From an uncultured Prevotellaceae bacterium (GTDB taxonomy: Bacteria; Bacteroidota; Bacteroidia; Bacteroidales; Bacteroidaceae), in the NCBI GenBank assembly GCA_945831805.1, contig CAMADY010000010.1:1-48954 (forward strand): a stretch of 48,954 nucleotides of DNA. Reading direction: 5' to 3'. Shown here one piece after another: positions 3,180-16,500 of the stretch. A program made the position numbers and the translations under genes. The notes under the pieces were generated by a model. The model was not told where the DNA came from. It was given only the letters and a program-made list of their open reading frames with translations, and made no database searches. The first letter of the stretch is position 1, and every line of letters starts with the position of its first letter.

Positions 3180-5696
3180 TTAGTCTTTCTCACCGTATCC
3201 GTAACCATATCCGTAACCGTATCCGTAGCCATAGCCGCCATATCCGTAGCCACCGTATCCATAGTGATAGCCATAGCGTCCGTGACCACCTCTTGTAGCA
3301 TTGAGAAGCACAGCCATGTTGTTGAACTTCTTCTCATCGTAGTAGCCCTGGATGATAGGCAGCATGTCGCGCTCAAGGAGGTTCGCACGAATGATGAAGA
3401 GAGTCATGTCTGCGAAGTCAGAGATGATAGAGGTGTCGGCTACGATGTCCGTAGGAGGACAGTCGATGAATATGTAGTCATATTCCTGACGCAGCTTATC
3501 AAGAAGCTCTGTGACGCGTGGGCTGAAGAGCAGCTCCGTAGGGTTTGGCGGAATAGTGCCAACAGGTATGATGTCGAGGTCTTCAGCCTCCTCAACCTTG
3601 TATATAGGGCACTCGTTGATAGCGCCAGAGAGGTAGTCAGAGAGACCCTTCTCCGGCTTGTTACAGAATATACTCAGCGAAGCCTTACGCAGGTCAATAT
3701 CAATGATGATACACTTCTTGTCCTTCAAGGCGAAGGTATTAGCGATGTTCGCAACGAGGAATGACTTACCCGATCCAGGGTTACAGCTCGTCACCATGAT
3801 GACCTTCTTCTCGCCGTCAACGCTTCGAAGCATGAATTCAAGGTTCGTACGTGTAACACGGAACGCCTCATTGATGATGGTACGGCTGTTTTTCTTAACG
3901 ACAATCTTATAGCCGAGACCCTTGTTCTCCTTATGCTTGCTGACCTTCGGTTGGTCTGTCTTCTTGCTTGTTTTATAGAGAGGAATCTCGCCGACGTATG
4001 GTACGTTGAGGTCCTCGATATCCTTACGTCCACGAACACGTGTGTTGAGAATCTCGCGGAGGTAGATGATGCCGACCGGAATCATGAGACCTGCCAGGAG
4101 TGCAATGAGCATTACCTTCATCTTCTGAGGAGAAGTAGGAGTGTTGGTACCCATTGGAGGAGTTATGATACGAGTGTTGTAAGCCGTGAAAGCCTGGTTG
4201 AGTTCGTTCTCCTCACGCTTCTGCAGGAGGAAGAGGTATAGGCTCTCCTTTACCTTCTGCTGACGCTCTACGGAGAGAAGTGTCTTAGCCTGAACCGGGC
4301 TCTTTGCTATCTTGCTTGTGTTCTCGTTCATATTGCCCTGCTCACTCTTGACGAGAGTCTGGAGCTTCGTTGCCTCGTTGTCAAGACTTACGAGTATAGA
4401 CTTGCGCAGTTCCGTCAGCTGGTTGTTGAGGTCGAGCACGAGGGCATTCTCCTCAGAGCTGTTTGATGCAAGGCTGTTACGCTGGAGGAGCATCGTATTG
4501 TACTGCGCGAGTAGTGTCTCAATGGCACTGTTCTCAATGCCGCTGTTAGCAGGCAGCAACTGGTACTTGTTCTTCTCAGCAGACATGTAGTTCTTCACGA
4601 AGCGCACCATGTAGAGCGCATTGGAGTAGTTGCGTGTCTGAGTGCCTGAATGGCTTGCCTCCTGTAATGCCAATGCTGTTGTTGCAGCAATATCCGGCAC
4701 GAGGTTCTGGGTCTTGAATGTAGAGATGTCCGAATCCACAAGACCGAGTTCTCTCTCAATAACCTTCAGGCGCTCATTGATGAACTGGCTTGTGCTCACC
4801 GCAATCTGGTTCTTGTCCTTCACCCAGTTCTCGTTATATACGGCGATGATAGTGTTGAGCACATCCTCAGCGCGCTGGGTGTTCACATCGTTGTATGTGA
4901 GGTTAATGACGGCAGACTGCTTGTCGTTTAGTGCAGCAGAGAAATTGTTCTTGATGCCAGTCATCGCAGCCATGATGCTCTTACGTGCAACAAGGATCTC
5001 CATATTGTCGCCGGTGAGTGCCGTAGAGAAATAAGGTGTCGGTGTAACCTTCATCTGACCGGCAATGGTAGGCACGGCCCTGTTGAATGCACCCTTTATC
5101 TCATCCTTGTGCTCAAACTCCGTGTTGCCCTTCTTTGTCTTCAAGTCCTTGATGGTAAACCCATCCTTGCTGACATACAGCTTGAAGCTAACAGTCTGCT
5201 CGTCGTCGAGACCTGCAATGAATACGTTGACAGGGAGAGTCTTTCCGTAGAGAGTGGCATTCTGGAAAGTGCCGCTTGTCTGGTATGAGAAGTCCTGATG
5301 CAGGCGCTTTGCCACCTCAACGAGTATCGATGGGCTCTGAATAGATACCAACTCATTGTTGACGTCAGATGCTGCACTGAACATGCCGAGGTCTGCACCT
5401 CCGCTGAGCTGTGCCATCATAGAACGTGAGTCCTTGCCGTCTTCCTTGATCATCACCGAAGCATTACGGGTGTAAACCTTAGGTGTCTTCAGGAGATAGA
5501 ACACTCCGATTGTCAGTGTCACCAGCACAGAAACAACGAACCACCACCATCTGTGCAGGCACATGCTGTAGATGTCCATGAAGTTGATGCCCTTATCTAT
5601 CGCTGTCGTCTTGGCAGGGGTTGCCTGATTCTGTATCTCTTGCTTTGGATTTTGTTGTTCCATTGGGATTTTATATTGAATTATGCTGTTTTGCAA
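3180..5696 (-). CDS. Wzc-like polysaccharide chain-length determinant / BY-type tyrosine kinase
   Basis: Wzz-like N-terminus, Walker motif NPGSGKSFLVANIA, IIIDIDLRK, DYIFIDCPP, Tyr-rich C-terminus. Confidence 0.92.
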   Translation of the reverse strand: MQNSIIQYKIPMEQQNPKQEIQNQATPAKTTAIDKGINFMDIYSMCLHRWWWFVVSVLVTLTIGVFYLLKTPKVYTRNASVMIKEDGKDSRSMMAQLSGGADLGMFSAASDVNNELVSIQSPSILVEVAKRLHQDFSYQTSGTFQNATLYGKTLPVNVFIAGLDDEQTVSFKLYVSKDGFTIKDLKTKKGNTEFEHKDEIKGAFNRAVPTIAGQMKVTPTPYFSTALTGDNMEILVARKSIMAAMTGIKNNFSAALNDKQSAVINLTYNDVNTQRAEDVLNTIIAVYNENWVKDKNQIAVSTSQFINERLKVIERELGLVDSDISTFKTQNLVPDIAATTALALQEASHSGTQTRNYSNALYMVRFVKNYMSAEKNKYQLLPANSGIENSAIETLLAQYNTMLLQRNSLASNSSEENALVLDLNNQLTELRKSILVSLDNEATKLQTLVKSEQGNMNENTSKIAKSPVQAKTLLSVERQQKVKESLYLFLLQKREENELNQAFTAYNTRIITPPMGTNTPTSPQKMKVMLIALLAGLMIPVGIIYLREILNTRVRGRKDIEDLNVPYVGEIPLYKTSKKTDQPKVSKHKENKGLGYKIVVKKNSRTIINEAFRVTRTNLEFMLRSVDGEKKVIMVTSCNPGSGKSFLVANIANTFALKDKKCIIIDIDLRKASLSIFCNKPEKGLSDYLSGAINECPIYKVEEAEDLDIIPVGTIPPNPTELLFSPRVTELLDKLRQEYDYIFIDCPPTDIVADTSIISDFADMTLFIIRANLLERDMLPIIQGYYDEKKFNNMAVLLNATRGGHGRYGYHYGYGGYGYGGYGYGYGYGYGYGYGEKD

Positions 5697-11137: not shown

Positions 11138-12217
11138 GTGAAGAAGATACTTTTAGGACTCAGCAATGAAGAATTGCGCCAGGTTGCAAAAGACCTCGGC
11201 ATGCCGGCATTCACCGGAGGACAGATAGCCAAGTGGCTTTATGGCGCTCATGTAACGTCGATTGACGAGATGACGAACATCTCGAAGAAGAACCGCGAGC
11301 TGCTGTCGGAGCACTATACCATAGGCTGCATGCCTCCTATCGACCAGCAATGCTCGAAGGACGGCACCATAAAGTACCTCTTTCCCGTGGAGTCGGGCAA
11401 GTTCGTGGAGACGGTGTTCATACCGGAGAAGGACAGGGCAACGCTCTGCGTCAGCTCGCAGGTGGGCTGTAAGATGAACTGCCTCTTCTGCCAGACGGGC
11501 AAGCAGGGCTTCGAAGGGTCGCTGACAGCTGCCGACATACTGAACCAGATATACTCCCTTCCCGAGCGCGAATGCCTCACGAACATTGTGTTCATGGGAC
11601 AGGGCGAGCCGATGGACAACCTCGACAACGTGCTGAAGGCTACCGAGGTGCTTACTGCCGATTGGGGATATGCGTGGAGTCCGCGCCGTATCACCGTCAG
11701 CAGCGTGGGCATCAAGGGTAAGCTGGAGCGATTTCTCAACGAGAGCGAGTGTCATGTGGCTATTTCCATGCACACGCCGATACCGGAGCAGCGCGCTCAG
11801 CTGATGCCCGCAGAGAAGGGTATGCCGATAGAAGAGATAGTGGAACTGCTGAAGAGATATGAGCCGTTCCGTCGCAAGGGCTTCGACGGCGAGTACAACG
11901 AAGCGCCACATCAGCGCAGATTGTCGTTCGAATATACCGTCTTCGATGGCGTTAACGATACTATGACGCATGCGAAGACCATAGTACGACTGCTCCAAGG
12001 ACTCGACTGCCGCATAAACCTCATCCGTTTCCACCAGATTCCGGATGTGCCGCTGAGGACGAGTGACGAGAAACGAATGGAGTCATTGCGTGACTACCTG
12101 ACGAAGCACGGCATATTCACCACCATTCGTGCCTCGCGTGGACAGGATATCTTCGCTGCTTGCGGACTGCTTTCAACGGCGAAGAAGGAGGGGAAGTCCA
12201 TAGTTGACAATTCATAG
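11138..12217 (+). CDS. rlmN: 23S rRNA (adenine2503-C2)-methyltransferase
   Basis: Radical SAM motif CKMNCLFCQTG, GQGEPMDN, RRITVSSVG. Confidence 0.95.
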   Translation: MKKILLGLSNEELRQVAKDLGMPAFTGGQIAKWLYGAHVTSIDEMTNISKKNRELLSEHYTIGCMPPIDQQCSKDGTIKYLFPVESGKFVETVFIPEKDRATLCVSSQVGCKMNCLFCQTGKQGFEGSLTAADILNQIYSLPERECLTNIVFMGQGEPMDNLDNVLKATEVLTADWGYAWSPRRITVSSVGIKGKLERFLNESECHVAISMHTPIPEQRAQLMPAEKGMPIEEIVELLKRYEPFRRKGFDGEYNEAPHQRRLSFEYTVFDGVNDTMTHAKTIVRLLQGLDCRINLIRFHQIPDVPLRTSDEKRMESLRDYLTKHGIFTTIRASRGQDIFAACGLLSTAKKEGKSIVDNS

Positions 12218-12254: not shown

Positions 12255-13217
12255 ATGAATAAGATAGCGATTGTCGGCAATCCGCCGGCAGACAAGATAG
12301 AAATGCTCGATGCCCTCTTGGGTGAAGAGGACCTGAAGGACCTCTGCCACGTCGTGATTTACAGCGATACGGAGAAGTCTGACGAGCAACTGCTGACAGA
12401 GGCCATTGCCGACTATAAGGATGGCCACGTAAAAGGCATCGTGTGCCTGCCAATGAAATGTTCCGTGAAGGAACTGGTAGCAAAGAGTTCGGAGACGGAG
12501 AACCCCGACCTCATGAAGGTGTATGTTAACACCTTAGCACGCCTTGCGTCGGTTCGTGAGGCAAAGAGCGAAGCAGCACTTACCATGGAAGATGTCGTGG
12601 CAAGGGTGACGCTGCTCTCAAAGTCGTTGAAGCGCGACCTCAACATTCTCAACCCGCGTATCTGCATGCTCTGCGTCAACAAGGAGGTGACGGAGACATC
12701 GGAGGAGATGACGCTCATGGCACCTGCCATCAACGAACTAGTGAAGAATGGCATACAGGTTTTCGGTCCCCTGCCCTACCAGGGATTCTTCGAGCGCAAG
12801 GACATTGAGGCGTTCGACGGCATCGTGCAGATCTATGCCGACGAGGCGATGCAGAACAGCCATCACACTGCCGATGCCATGCAGAAGAACTGCAATGAAC
12901 CTACGGTAACCATGCTTACAGGGGGTGAGATGCCGGTAGTGCTGACTGCTGCTGAAGGTATGATAACCGCCATAGGTATCGTCCTCGACATGATACACAA
13001 CCGCTATGTCTATGACATACCGTTCCGCCATCCACTGCCAAAGCTCTACCATGAGCGCAAGGAAGATGGCGACAAGGCACGGTTCGCAAAGGTGAAGAAG
13101 GGATTCAACCCTGCGGAGCATCGTAGGGAGAATGTTACCTATACTACGACAAGACAACCAAAAACAGCACCGGAAACAGCTCCTGCAGCAGCAAATAAAG
13201 CGGAAGGTGCAGAATAA
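12255..13217 (+). CDS. PdxA-like protein with degenerate active site
   Basis: Collinear with the PdxA C-terminal half (RDLNILNPRICMLCVN, INELVKNGIQVFGPLPYQGFFERKDIEAFDGIVQIY) but the His metal-ligand motifs are absent. Confidence 0.75.
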   Translation: MNKIAIVGNPPADKIEMLDALLGEEDLKDLCHVVIYSDTEKSDEQLLTEAIADYKDGHVKGIVCLPMKCSVKELVAKSSETENPDLMKVYVNTLARLASVREAKSEAALTMEDVVARVTLLSKSLKRDLNILNPRICMLCVNKEVTETSEEMTLMAPAINELVKNGIQVFGPLPYQGFFERKDIEAFDGIVQIYADEAMQNSHHTADAMQKNCNEPTVTMLTGGEMPVVLTAAEGMITAIGIVLDMIHNRYVYDIPFRHPLPKLYHERKEDGDKARFAKVKKGFNPAEHRRENVTYTTTRQPKTAPETAPAAANKAEGAE

Positions 13218-13324
13218 TTGTTAATAAATGTGCAAAAATACTCGTTATTTCAAAAAAAATGAGTAACTTTGCAACCTATTATGAACTGTGGGATACTACC
13301 ACGGGACATGTAAAAGAGAAAAGG

Positions 13325-14575
13325 ATGAACCAGATAGAGCTACAGAAAATAAAGGAACGCTACAACATCGTGGGCAACTGCGATGCGCTGAACCATGCTC
13401 TCGACATAGCTCTCCAGGTGTCATCGACAGACCTCTCTGTGCTTATTGAGGGCGAGAGCGGCGTGGGTAAGGAAATAATTCCGCGCATCATACACGACAC
13501 GTCACCACGCCGACGCGAGAAGTATTTCGCCATCAACTGCGGATCGATACCTGAGGGAACGATTGACTCTGAGCTCTTCGGTCATGAGAAAGGATCATTC
13601 ACGGGTGCCGTAGGTTCCAGCGAAGGATACTTCGGAATAGCCAACAAGGGCACTTTGTTCCTCGATGAGGTCGGCGAACTGCCAATGTCAACACAGGCAC
13701 GACTGCTAAGGGTACTCGAAAACGGTGAGTACATAAAGGTAGGAGGCCAGGAGGTAATAAAGACCGACGTGCGAATCGTGGCTGCTACGAACGTAAATAT
13801 CCAGAAGGCTATCAGGGAAGGACGCTTCCGCCGTGACCTCTACTACCGTCTTAACACCATTCCGGTGAAGATGCCGCCGCTGAGGGAACGCGGAGAAGAC
13901 ATTGTGCTGCTGTTCCGACTCTTCGCTCTTCAGATGTCAGAGAAATATCATCTCGACCGCATCTCGCTGACAAACGATGCCAAGCAAGTGCTGATGAAGT
14001 ACAAATGGCCAGGCAATGTGCGACAGCTCAAGAATATCACGGAGCAGATGTCTATACTATGCCCTAAGCGTGAGGTCGATGTTGACGAACTGCTGAAGTT
14101 CATTCCGCTAAACGAAGAGAGTACGCAGCTTGCTACGATAAATCCAAAAGGCAACAACGCCAACTCCTACGAGAACGAACGAGAGATGCTCTTCAAGATT
14201 CTCTTTGAGATGCGTTCCAACGTGGCTGACCTCAAACGAGAGATAAACTCGCTGAGGAAGCAGCTCGACGAGAACCCTTCAACGGTGTCATTACAGTCCA
14301 CTATGCCACAGACCTCTATGCCGGTGCATTCCGCTGGACACATTCCTGTACATCCTGCGCAATACCCTATGAAGGGAATACCTGTTCAGCAGGAGTACGA
14401 TGCAGAGGCGCAGGAGATTTCGGAGCCAGAGAACCTCAACCTCAACGATCTCGGAAGGATTGTACTGGAGAAGGCACTCGAAAGGAATGGAGGAAACAGG
14501 CACAAGGCTGCTCTTGACCTCGGACTCTCTGACCGCACGCTCTACAGAAGACTGAAGCAATACGGCCTGCAGTAA
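13325..14575 (+). CDS. Sigma-54-dependent transcriptional activator (AAA+ and Fis-type HTH, no receiver domain)
   Basis: GESGVGKE, GHEKGSFTGAV, GTLFLDEVGELP, C-terminal ALDLGLSDRTLYRRLKQYGL; ATG 13325 preferred because the ORF start at 13259 overlaps a TAACTTTG box. Confidence 0.92.
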   Translation: MNQIELQKIKERYNIVGNCDALNHALDIALQVSSTDLSVLIEGESGVGKEIIPRIIHDTSPRRREKYFAINCGSIPEGTIDSELFGHEKGSFTGAVGSSEGYFGIANKGTLFLDEVGELPMSTQARLLRVLENGEYIKVGGQEVIKTDVRIVAATNVNIQKAIREGRFRRDLYYRLNTIPVKMPPLRERGEDIVLLFRLFALQMSEKYHLDRISLTNDAKQVLMKYKWPGNVRQLKNITEQMSILCPKREVDVDELLKFIPLNEESTQLATINPKGNNANSYENEREMLFKILFEMRSNVADLKREINSLRKQLDENPSTVSLQSTMPQTSMPVHSAGHIPVHPAQYPMKGIPVQQEYDAEAQEISEPENLNLNDLGRIVLEKALERNGGNRHKAALDLGLSDRTLYRRLKQYGLQ

Positions 14576-14674
14576 GTACGCTGACGATGATTTGGGGAAC
14601 ACGCCCTGCAGTAAACCGTTTCACTACGGAAAAGTTCAAGGTATAACAACACTTTGATAAACGAAGAAAAGAGA

Positions 14675-15196
14675 ATGAAGACTCGCTATATATTGGCATT
14701 CGCCATCTGTTGCATCACTACGCTGACAGCACTTGTGGCATGCTCTGTTTCGTACAAGTTCAATGGCGCAAGCATTGACTATACACAGACGAAGACCATC
14801 ACCATCAGTGACTTCCCTATAAGAGCTACATACGTATGGGGACCGATGCAGTCCATCTTCAACAACCGTCTGAAGGATGTCTATGCACAGCAGACACGTC
14901 TCTCACAGGTCAAGAAGGGCGGCGACCTGAAGGTAGAAGGCGAGATAACGCAGTACCAGCAGCGCAACAAGTCCGTGTCGGCTGATGGATACTCGGCACA
15001 GACGGAGCTCTCGATGACCGTCAACGTGCGCTTCACCAACAATAAGAACCACACACAGGACTTCGAGCGCAGCTTCACTGCTACGGCGACCTACGAGTCA
15101 ACAAGGAGCCTTAACTCCGTTCAGGAGCAGCTTGTAACAGAAATGACAAAGGACATTTGTGACCAAATCTTCAACGCAACAGTAGCCAACTGGTAA
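14675..15196 (+). CDS. lptE: LptE-like LPS assembly lipoprotein
   Basis: Lipobox TALVACS; YKFNGASIDYTQTKTITISDFPI; SADGYSAQTELSMTVNVRF. Confidence 0.8.
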   Translation: MKTRYILAFAICCITTLTALVACSVSYKFNGASIDYTQTKTITISDFPIRATYVWGPMQSIFNNRLKDVYAQQTRLSQVKKGGDLKVEGEITQYQQRNKSVSADGYSAQTELSMTVNVRFTNNKNHTQDFERSFTATATYESTRSLNSVQEQLVTEMTKDICDQIFNATVANW

Positions 15197-16021
15197 ATGA
15201 ACATCAACGAACTGATACAACATCCGGAAATGCTCAACAGGGAGACGCTCTATGAGCTGCGCAGGTTGACGGCTGACTATCCCTATTATCAGCCGGCACG
15301 TCTGCTGATGTTGAAGAACCTGTACCTGCTGCATGATCCGTCATTCGATGAGGAACTGCGAAGGGCTGCAATGTACTTCACTGACAGAAAAGTGCTGTTC
15401 AACCTCGTTGAGGCTGCTCACTACCGACTGAAGAGAAAGTCACCACAGAGCTTCTCATCAACGCCAGACCGAAGACACAACTCCAAGGTGGCGGAAGAGG
15501 TCAATAGTTCAAGAACGGTGTCGCTCATCGATAACTTCCTAAGCACCATTCCTGACGATGAGGAGGAGAAGAAACTGGAGGTCAAGAAGCAGCAGAAACA
15601 CCGCAAGCCTACGGCAGCTGACGCAACGGTAGATTACGTGGCATACCTTTTGTCAACAGACTTCGAGGAACTAAATGAGTCGCAGGACTCTCAGCCTGCT
15701 GACGACACTGCGGGGAACACGAAAGCCATGAACGGCGGTGACCTCATTGATGCATTCATAATGAATGATGGCGGACGCATAACACTACAGGAAGAGCCGG
15801 AGTTCCTGCCGGAGGTTCCGATAGCAGACAATAGCGAAAAGGAGCCGGAGGAAGAGTTCCTCACCGAAACCCTTGCCGGAATATACATCAAGCAGGGACG
15901 ATTCAAGAAGGCACTCGACATCATGAACCGCATTCACGAGAACAACCCCGAGAAGAGTCCGTTCTATGATGACCAGAAGAGGTTCCTCGAAAAGCTCATC
16001 GCAAACCAAAGGAAGAAATAG
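15197..16021 (+). CDS. Conserved hypothetical protein, TPR-like C-terminus
   Basis: ORF between lptE and secG; C-terminal ETLAGIYIKQGRFKKALDIMNRIHENNPEKS is TPR-like. Confidence 0.75.
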   Translation: MNINELIQHPEMLNRETLYELRRLTADYPYYQPARLLMLKNLYLLHDPSFDEELRRAAMYFTDRKVLFNLVEAAHYRLKRKSPQSFSSTPDRRHNSKVAEEVNSSRTVSLIDNFLSTIPDDEEEKKLEVKKQQKHRKPTAADATVDYVAYLLSTDFEELNESQDSQPADDTAGNTKAMNGGDLIDAFIMNDGGRITLQEEPEFLPEVPIADNSEKEPEEEFLTETLAGIYIKQGRFKKALDIMNRIHENNPEKSPFYDDQKRFLEKLIANQRKK

Positions 16022-16122: not shown

Positions 16123-16500
16123 ATGTACACATTATTCGTAATTCTTATCGTAGTGGCAGCACTACTTATGATTGGTATCGTACTCATTCAGGAGTCAAAG
16201 GGCGGCGGTCTCGCTTCTGGCTTTGCCAGTGCTAACAGCGTTGCTGGCGTACGTCAGACAACAAACTTCATCGAGAAGGCTACATGGGGTCTCGCTGCTG
16301 CAATGATTGTCATCAGCATCATCTGTGCTTACACCGCACCTAACGCTGTAGCTGAGGGTAGCGTTATCGAGAATGCTGCTACAGAGCAGGCTACAACAAA
16401 CCCTAACAACGTTCAGGGATTCGGCGCATCTGAGCAAAAGGCACCTGCTGCAGAGGCTGCACCTGCTGCACCTGCAACAGAAGCTCCTAAGGCAGAGTAA
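16123..16500 (+). CDS. secG: Preprotein translocase subunit SecG
   Basis: Two TM segments, VLIQESKGGGLASGFA, Ala/Pro-rich tail. Confidence 0.93.
   Translation: MYTLFVILIVVAALLMIGIVLIQESKGGGLASGFASANSVAGVRQTTNFIEKATWGLAAAMIVISIICAYTAPNAVAEGSVIENAATEQATTNPNNVQGFGASEQKAPAAEAAPAAPATEAPKAE

Follow-up and report, generated by a model that had tools for sequence, protein, structure and literature searches.

Bacteria possess pseudoenzymes that serve regulatory or scaffold roles. The accessible portions of two papers describe PdxAJ and PdxST routes of vitamin B6 synthesis (PMC4403557, PMC6593275), one of them reporting PdxTS in two Prevotellaceae (PMC4403557); in those portions neither paper mentions a catalytically dead, retained PdxA. 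Our search of the open-licence literature found no paper on a PdxA pseudoenzyme, on PdxA moonlighting or on pdxA loss in Prevotella. Here, we report the analysis of a pdxA homologue in an uncultured Prevotellaceae bacterium, encoded on a 48,954-nt stretch of DNA (the window) and singled out from its letters as a candidate pseudoenzyme. We propose, at a probability of roughly two in three, that it is a retained PdxA pseudoenzyme, the surviving non-catalytic function of which depends on a C-terminal tail and probably predates the loss of catalysis.

A PdxA homologue without its active site

The window protein exceeds the cut-off of the Pfam PdxA family (PF04166; 64.2 bits against 27, E=1.7e-17), and a Foldseek comparison of its AlphaFold model with the PDB places E. 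coli PdxA first (1ps6/1ptm; E=1.4e-13, TM about 0.55), both of which uphold the homology first recognized by eye. This model has a pLDDT of 79, with most of the core at 85–95; like the others used here, it is a monomer built from a shallow alignment. The protein fails the NCBIfam PdxA equivalog criterion (TIGR00557), with 49 bits against a cut-off of 290. A close relative (L108, clade 2) reaches only 22 bits against the Pfam cut-off of 27, so annotation may list clade 2 members as hypothetical proteins.

Aligned to E. coli PdxA, the window protein retains one of ten substrate- and metal-binding residues, D267. The other nine are lost: H136, T137 and H166 fall in gaps, and H211, D247, H266, K274, N283 and R292 are replaced by E, Q, A, Q, T and L, respectively. 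The metal-binding histidine triad (H166, H211 and H266) reads gap, E, A, in agreement with the original prediction that all three ligands are absent. The predicted changes of NPHAGEGG into NKEVTETS and of MYHDQG into IYADEA were reproduced in this alignment, as was the loss of the GHTE and HGTA motifs, both segments being deleted; about 55 residues beyond the second strand are missing as well. A further proposed change, of TTHxPVRE into ARLASVRE, was out of register, ARLASVRE pairing with LRVALVTT just before TTHLP, although H166 is indeed absent. Three intermediates (L044, L090 and L088) have lost the roughly 20-residue GHTE segment, yet their N-terminal GDTNGIGYE motif is almost unchanged, a puzzling persistence if that site binds nothing.

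The overall PdxA fold would also suit an enzyme that still works with its metal ligands relocated, but we give this reading almost no credence: no alignment moves the histidines elsewhere in the fold, the core has no conserved histidine among the 16 closest orthologues (the sole invariant one, H289, lies in the tail), two motif-bearing segments are deleted and there is no pdxJ to use the product. A second pdxA, canonical or otherwise, was looked for, and none is present in the assembly of the window's genome (82% complete).

The gene is nonetheless whole, with the predicted uninterrupted frame running from an ATG at 12255 to a stop at 13217. The order rlmN–pdxA–sigma-54 activator–lptE–TPR–secG is common to the window and to pdxJ-containing relatives with canonical pdxA, which identifies the window gene as the ancestral pdxA itself and not a side copy. 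Of 91 stretches in a wider set, 88 have rlmN upstream of pdxA and in the same orientation; sampling of other Bacteroidota families turned up no rlmN next to pdxA. The named relatives are uncultured Prevotella or Prevotellaceae, chiefly rumen and gut metagenome-assembled genomes. The sigma-54 activator had been taken as a sign that the gene is maintained. The adjacency is real but says little for a link, since the activator also adjoins normal pdxA and also occurs without pdxA in front of it (genus g8). Functional coupling of the two was rejected as a candidate, their adjacency being common but not strict.

Table 1. Coordinates of the pdxA-derived gene, its parts and its neighbours in the window
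Feature	Position	Strand	Basis or remark
pdxA-derived pseudoenzyme gene, 320 aa	12255..13217	+	ORF, Pfam PdxA, gene order, active-site columns, AF2/Foldseek
Eroded PdxA core, residues 1–258	12255..13028	+	Predicted well folded; quickly evolving; catalytic residues lost
Former NPHAGEGG metal/substrate loop, now NKEVTETS (H211 to E)	12678..12701	+	
Former MYHDQG motif, now IYADEA (H266 to A, D267 kept)	12831..12848	+	
Conserved C-terminal tail, residues 259–297, HPLPKLYHERKEDGDKARFAKVKKGFNPAEHRRENVTYT	13029..13145	+	Predicted disordered; most constrained part of the protein
rlmN (TIGR00048), upstream neighbour of pdxA in Bacteroidaceae	11138..12217	+	
Sigma-54 activator (AAA+ and Fis-type HTH)	13259..14575	+	Homology starts near 13325
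lptE, conserved downstream neighbour	14654..15196	+	
TPR-like protein gene, conserved downstream neighbour	15197..16021	+	
secG-like gene, end of conserved cluster	16123..16500	+	Conserved position only; presumed identity

Active-site loss follows the absence of pdxJ

PdxJ was not found in the window's genome (82% complete), nor in any tested member of the window's clade. The genome encodes an intact PdxS–PdxT pair, side by side on another contig (L113:2359-3231 and 3315-3890). Directly upstream of pdxS–pdxT lies a gene (L113:1132-2256) whose product joins a Phos_pyr_kin (phosphomethylpyrimidine-kinase-family) kinase to an AraC-type HTH and may be a kinase that regulates genes for B6 or thiamin.

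Among 60 genomes of the window's genus, PdxJ is present in 15 and absent in 45. In 14 of the 15, the locus encodes canonical PdxA at full length and with ten of ten residues in place; the fifteenth (G043) holds only a PdxA fragment there, in which every covered site is retained. The 45 genomes lacking pdxJ include 27 with PdxS and 43 that retain the pdxA gene, none with an intact histidine triad. The identical split is found in other Bacteroidaceae genera (g2, g8, g11, g12, g14 and g18). Over 90 orthologues, the triad is intact in 19 of the 19 tested from pdxJ-containing genomes and in 0 of 71 from genomes without pdxJ, counts that are not independent given the few state changes on the rlmN tree. 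The 71 include 12 extra members of the window's clade, confirmed to lack pdxJ; the 19 are those from genomes tested for PdxJ, a twentieth canonical sequence (G508) standing outside that set. The best rlmN tree implies five changes of pdxJ state, two of which are forced by well-supported branches, and pdxJ loss therefore probably happened more than once. Eroded PdxA is a pattern across several Bacteroidaceae genera and not a local oddity, and the loss of the active site is explained by the absence of pdxJ together with the presence of PdxS/PdxT. Genus g11 (L156, L158-L160) contains both pdxJ-bearing species with high PdxA scores and pdxJ-lacking species with a mildly eroded PdxA, making it a good place for dating the loss of pdxJ.

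The gene is retained under purifying selection

A survey of 399 genomes of the genus found PdxJ in 93 and no PdxJ in 306. With the window protein as query and a threshold of E<1e-10, homologues occur in 288 of the 306 and in 85 of the 93 (a tally of two tables): pdxA is retained without pdxJ as frequently as with it. Five genomes, at least 90% complete, have no good pdxA match; rlmN is missing from them as well, so the locus is probably unassembled there and we do not count these absences as true losses. No in-frame stop was found in any PdxA-profile-matched homologue of the 60 genomes.

We computed pairwise Nei–Gojobori dN/dS for pairs from pdxJ-lacking genomes with unsaturated dS (0.2–1.5). 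The ratio spans 0.03–0.17 overall, with 0.03 for G415/G434, 0.07 for G044/G028, 0.10–0.15 for clade 2 pairs, G026/G003 and G042/G045, and 0.115 (G134/G373) and 0.165 (G360/G170) within the window's own clade. Neighbouring genes in those pairs give about 0.01–0.10; pdxA is relaxed relative to its neighbours and far from neutral. These ratios describe the relatives only, since the window gene shares only about 45–48% identity with its nearest orthologue and dS is saturated at that distance.

Slow decay, in which pdxA became useless after pdxJ loss and is drifting towards a pseudogene with the open frame as a leftover, is hard to reconcile with such ratios, which indicate that the gene is not decaying, with the absence of stops or with retention equal to that of pdxJ-containing genomes; the probable assembly gaps remove five apparent losses, and the tail is near invariant despite saturated synonymous sites. 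This reading does draw on real observations: rlmN and the sigma-54 gene, compared within the same genomes, evolve several-fold more slowly than the core, deletions accumulate, and two genomes of genus g8, G425 (L171) and G485 (L170), seem to have lost pdxA from the locus, where unrelated genes precede the sigma-54 gene. We consider it improbable overall. The original prediction that the gene is maintained rather than decayed is borne out, the relatives having intact frames under purifying selection rather than frameshifts or neutral drift. The apparent losses in genus g8 do indicate that the retained role is not indispensable everywhere. Two other g8 genomes, G502 (L169) and G510 (L172), retain an even more eroded copy.

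Constraint shifts from the core to the C-terminal tail

In pdxJ-lacking orthologues, constraint shifts from the core to the tail. The mean majority fraction per alignment column is 0.79 in the core and 0.77 in the tail of pdxJ-containing genomes, as against 0.52 and 0.74 without pdxJ; in the extended clade of the window, the values are 0.54 and 0.85. Among the 16 closest orthologues, 16 of 38 tail columns are invariant as against 24 of 258 core columns (Fisher p=1.9e-6, a value that is descriptive only because the tail was picked after viewing the alignment).

The tail is rich in Lys and Arg and is predicted to be disordered, in shallow AlphaFold models, both in the window pseudoenzyme and in a canonical relative (the latter model being poor, with a pLDDT of 63). 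Its root (NPL-K-Y-E-K) is already present in canonical Bacteroidaceae members, as in NPLRKQYYEKRDDSDKLKL and NPLPKLFHEKKDDSEKVRF, in which the motif is shorter, and in the window's clade it is further extended into KKKGFNPAEHRREN. The tail is absent from E. coli PdxA, and no other Bacteroidota family in the sample has the extension. A mobile or shared motif was rejected, as the genome holds no second copy (next match E=0.22) and the PDB no match. Because conservation of the tail does not exceed that of the core where pdxJ is present, we infer, rather than observe, that its role existed before pdxJ was lost.

The tail coding region might instead be kept as DNA, as the site of a promoter or another signal acting on the sigma-54 gene and lptE, which in most genomes lie just downstream of the gene. 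In clade 1, however, the tail has a pN of 0.11 at a saturated pS of about 0.92 (core, 0.38 and 0.75), indicating that it is conserved as protein. The saturated synonymous sites lead us to reject conservation of the tail as DNA, and the sigma-54 gene is also found without a preceding pdxA; a regulatory signal is accordingly very improbable.

The PdxA fold could also have been reused, either to catalyse another reaction, perhaps one independent of metal, or to sense a small molecule. The predicted retention of the fold is consistent with this, as is the persistence of some ancestral structural or binding residues (GDTNGIGYE in the intermediates, PR, GP and the Q of YHDQG). But across 71 proteins the three ligand positions are filled in more than 50 different ways, leaving no shared replacement site, no core histidine is conserved and the core is the least constrained part of the protein. 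We regard such a new enzyme or sensor as unlikely, if slightly less so than slow decay.

A model for the retained pseudoenzyme

In our preferred reading, a PdxA pseudoenzyme kept for a tail-dependent function, the ancestral Bacteroidaceae PdxA would have catalysed the NAD- and metal-dependent dehydrogenase step in DXP-dependent B6 synthesis and, besides, played a second, non-catalytic role that used a short, Bacteroidaceae-specific, predicted-disordered C-terminal tail on a folded core. Once pdxJ was lost and B6 came from PdxS/PdxT or salvage, PdxA catalysis would have become useless; the active site would then have eroded in many different ways, with loops deleted, while purifying selection for the second role persisted, strictest in the tail. 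A transposon study found pdxA essential in Porphyromonas gingivalis (PMC3547785), a result that does not separate the two roles.

A non-catalytic interaction role is the most likely one for the pseudo-PdxA. A partner, whether protein or RNA, would dock on the charged, disordered tail, which the core would present as a scaffold; this role would predate the loss of catalysis. E. coli PdxA dimerises, and the core of the window pseudoenzyme may do so too. Contact of the tail with RNA or the ribosome is a tentative idea, for which the leads are its Lys/Arg richness and the rRNA methyltransferase gene next door; pdxA adjoins rlmN here and rsmA in E. coli.

The broader proposition, that Bacteroidaceae PdxA is a two-function protein whose tail-borne non-catalytic role is important enough for many species in several lineages to keep it once the B6 enzyme has died, stands at even odds in our judgement; if true, the canonical PdxA of Bacteroides would carry the hidden second role as well. 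An intact dead enzyme with a highly conserved tail in gut and rumen relatives of Prevotella suggests an undescribed second job. The system is a replicated natural experiment: more than one lineage has lost the pathway of a core metabolic enzyme and still keeps the protein, stripped of its active site. A hidden second function of PdxA thereby becomes open to direct testing, down to a tail of about 20–40 residues. For annotation, B6 synthesis should not be deduced from a pdxA match in a Prevotella-type genome; pdxJ or pdxS is the better marker.

Comparison with known systems

The closest described protein is PdxA itself, 4-hydroxythreonine-4-phosphate dehydrogenase (PF04166, TIGR00557; 1ps6/1ptm), with which the window protein shares common descent and a predicted fold, at the locus that holds canonical pdxA in Bacteroidaceae. 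Compared with the E. coli enzyme, it lacks the metal and substrate residues, has segments deleted, comes from a genome in which PdxJ is absent and is constrained chiefly in a tail without counterpart there. The window's genome shows the same switch from PdxA/PdxJ to PdxS/PdxT as the two Prevotellaceae with PdxTS in PMC4403557.

PdxA2, or D-threonate 4-phosphate dehydrogenase (NF002891 type), belongs to the same superfamily but keeps all motifs, sits in a sugar-acid type operon and is not orthologous to the window gene. Some relatives (L016-L021 and L037, at L037:3562-4683) have a second PdxA with all motifs present. The L037 operon also encodes what we take to be a DHDPS-like protein, a sodium/solute symporter, an iron alcohol dehydrogenase and a DUF1537-like kinase; its second PdxA is a PdxA2-type catabolic enzyme and no B6 backup.

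The window protein resembles bacterial pseudoenzymes generally in keeping its fold, having lost catalysis and being under purifying selection. It differs in that it did not arise as a duplicate: here a single orthologue died, repeatedly, after its pathway was lost.
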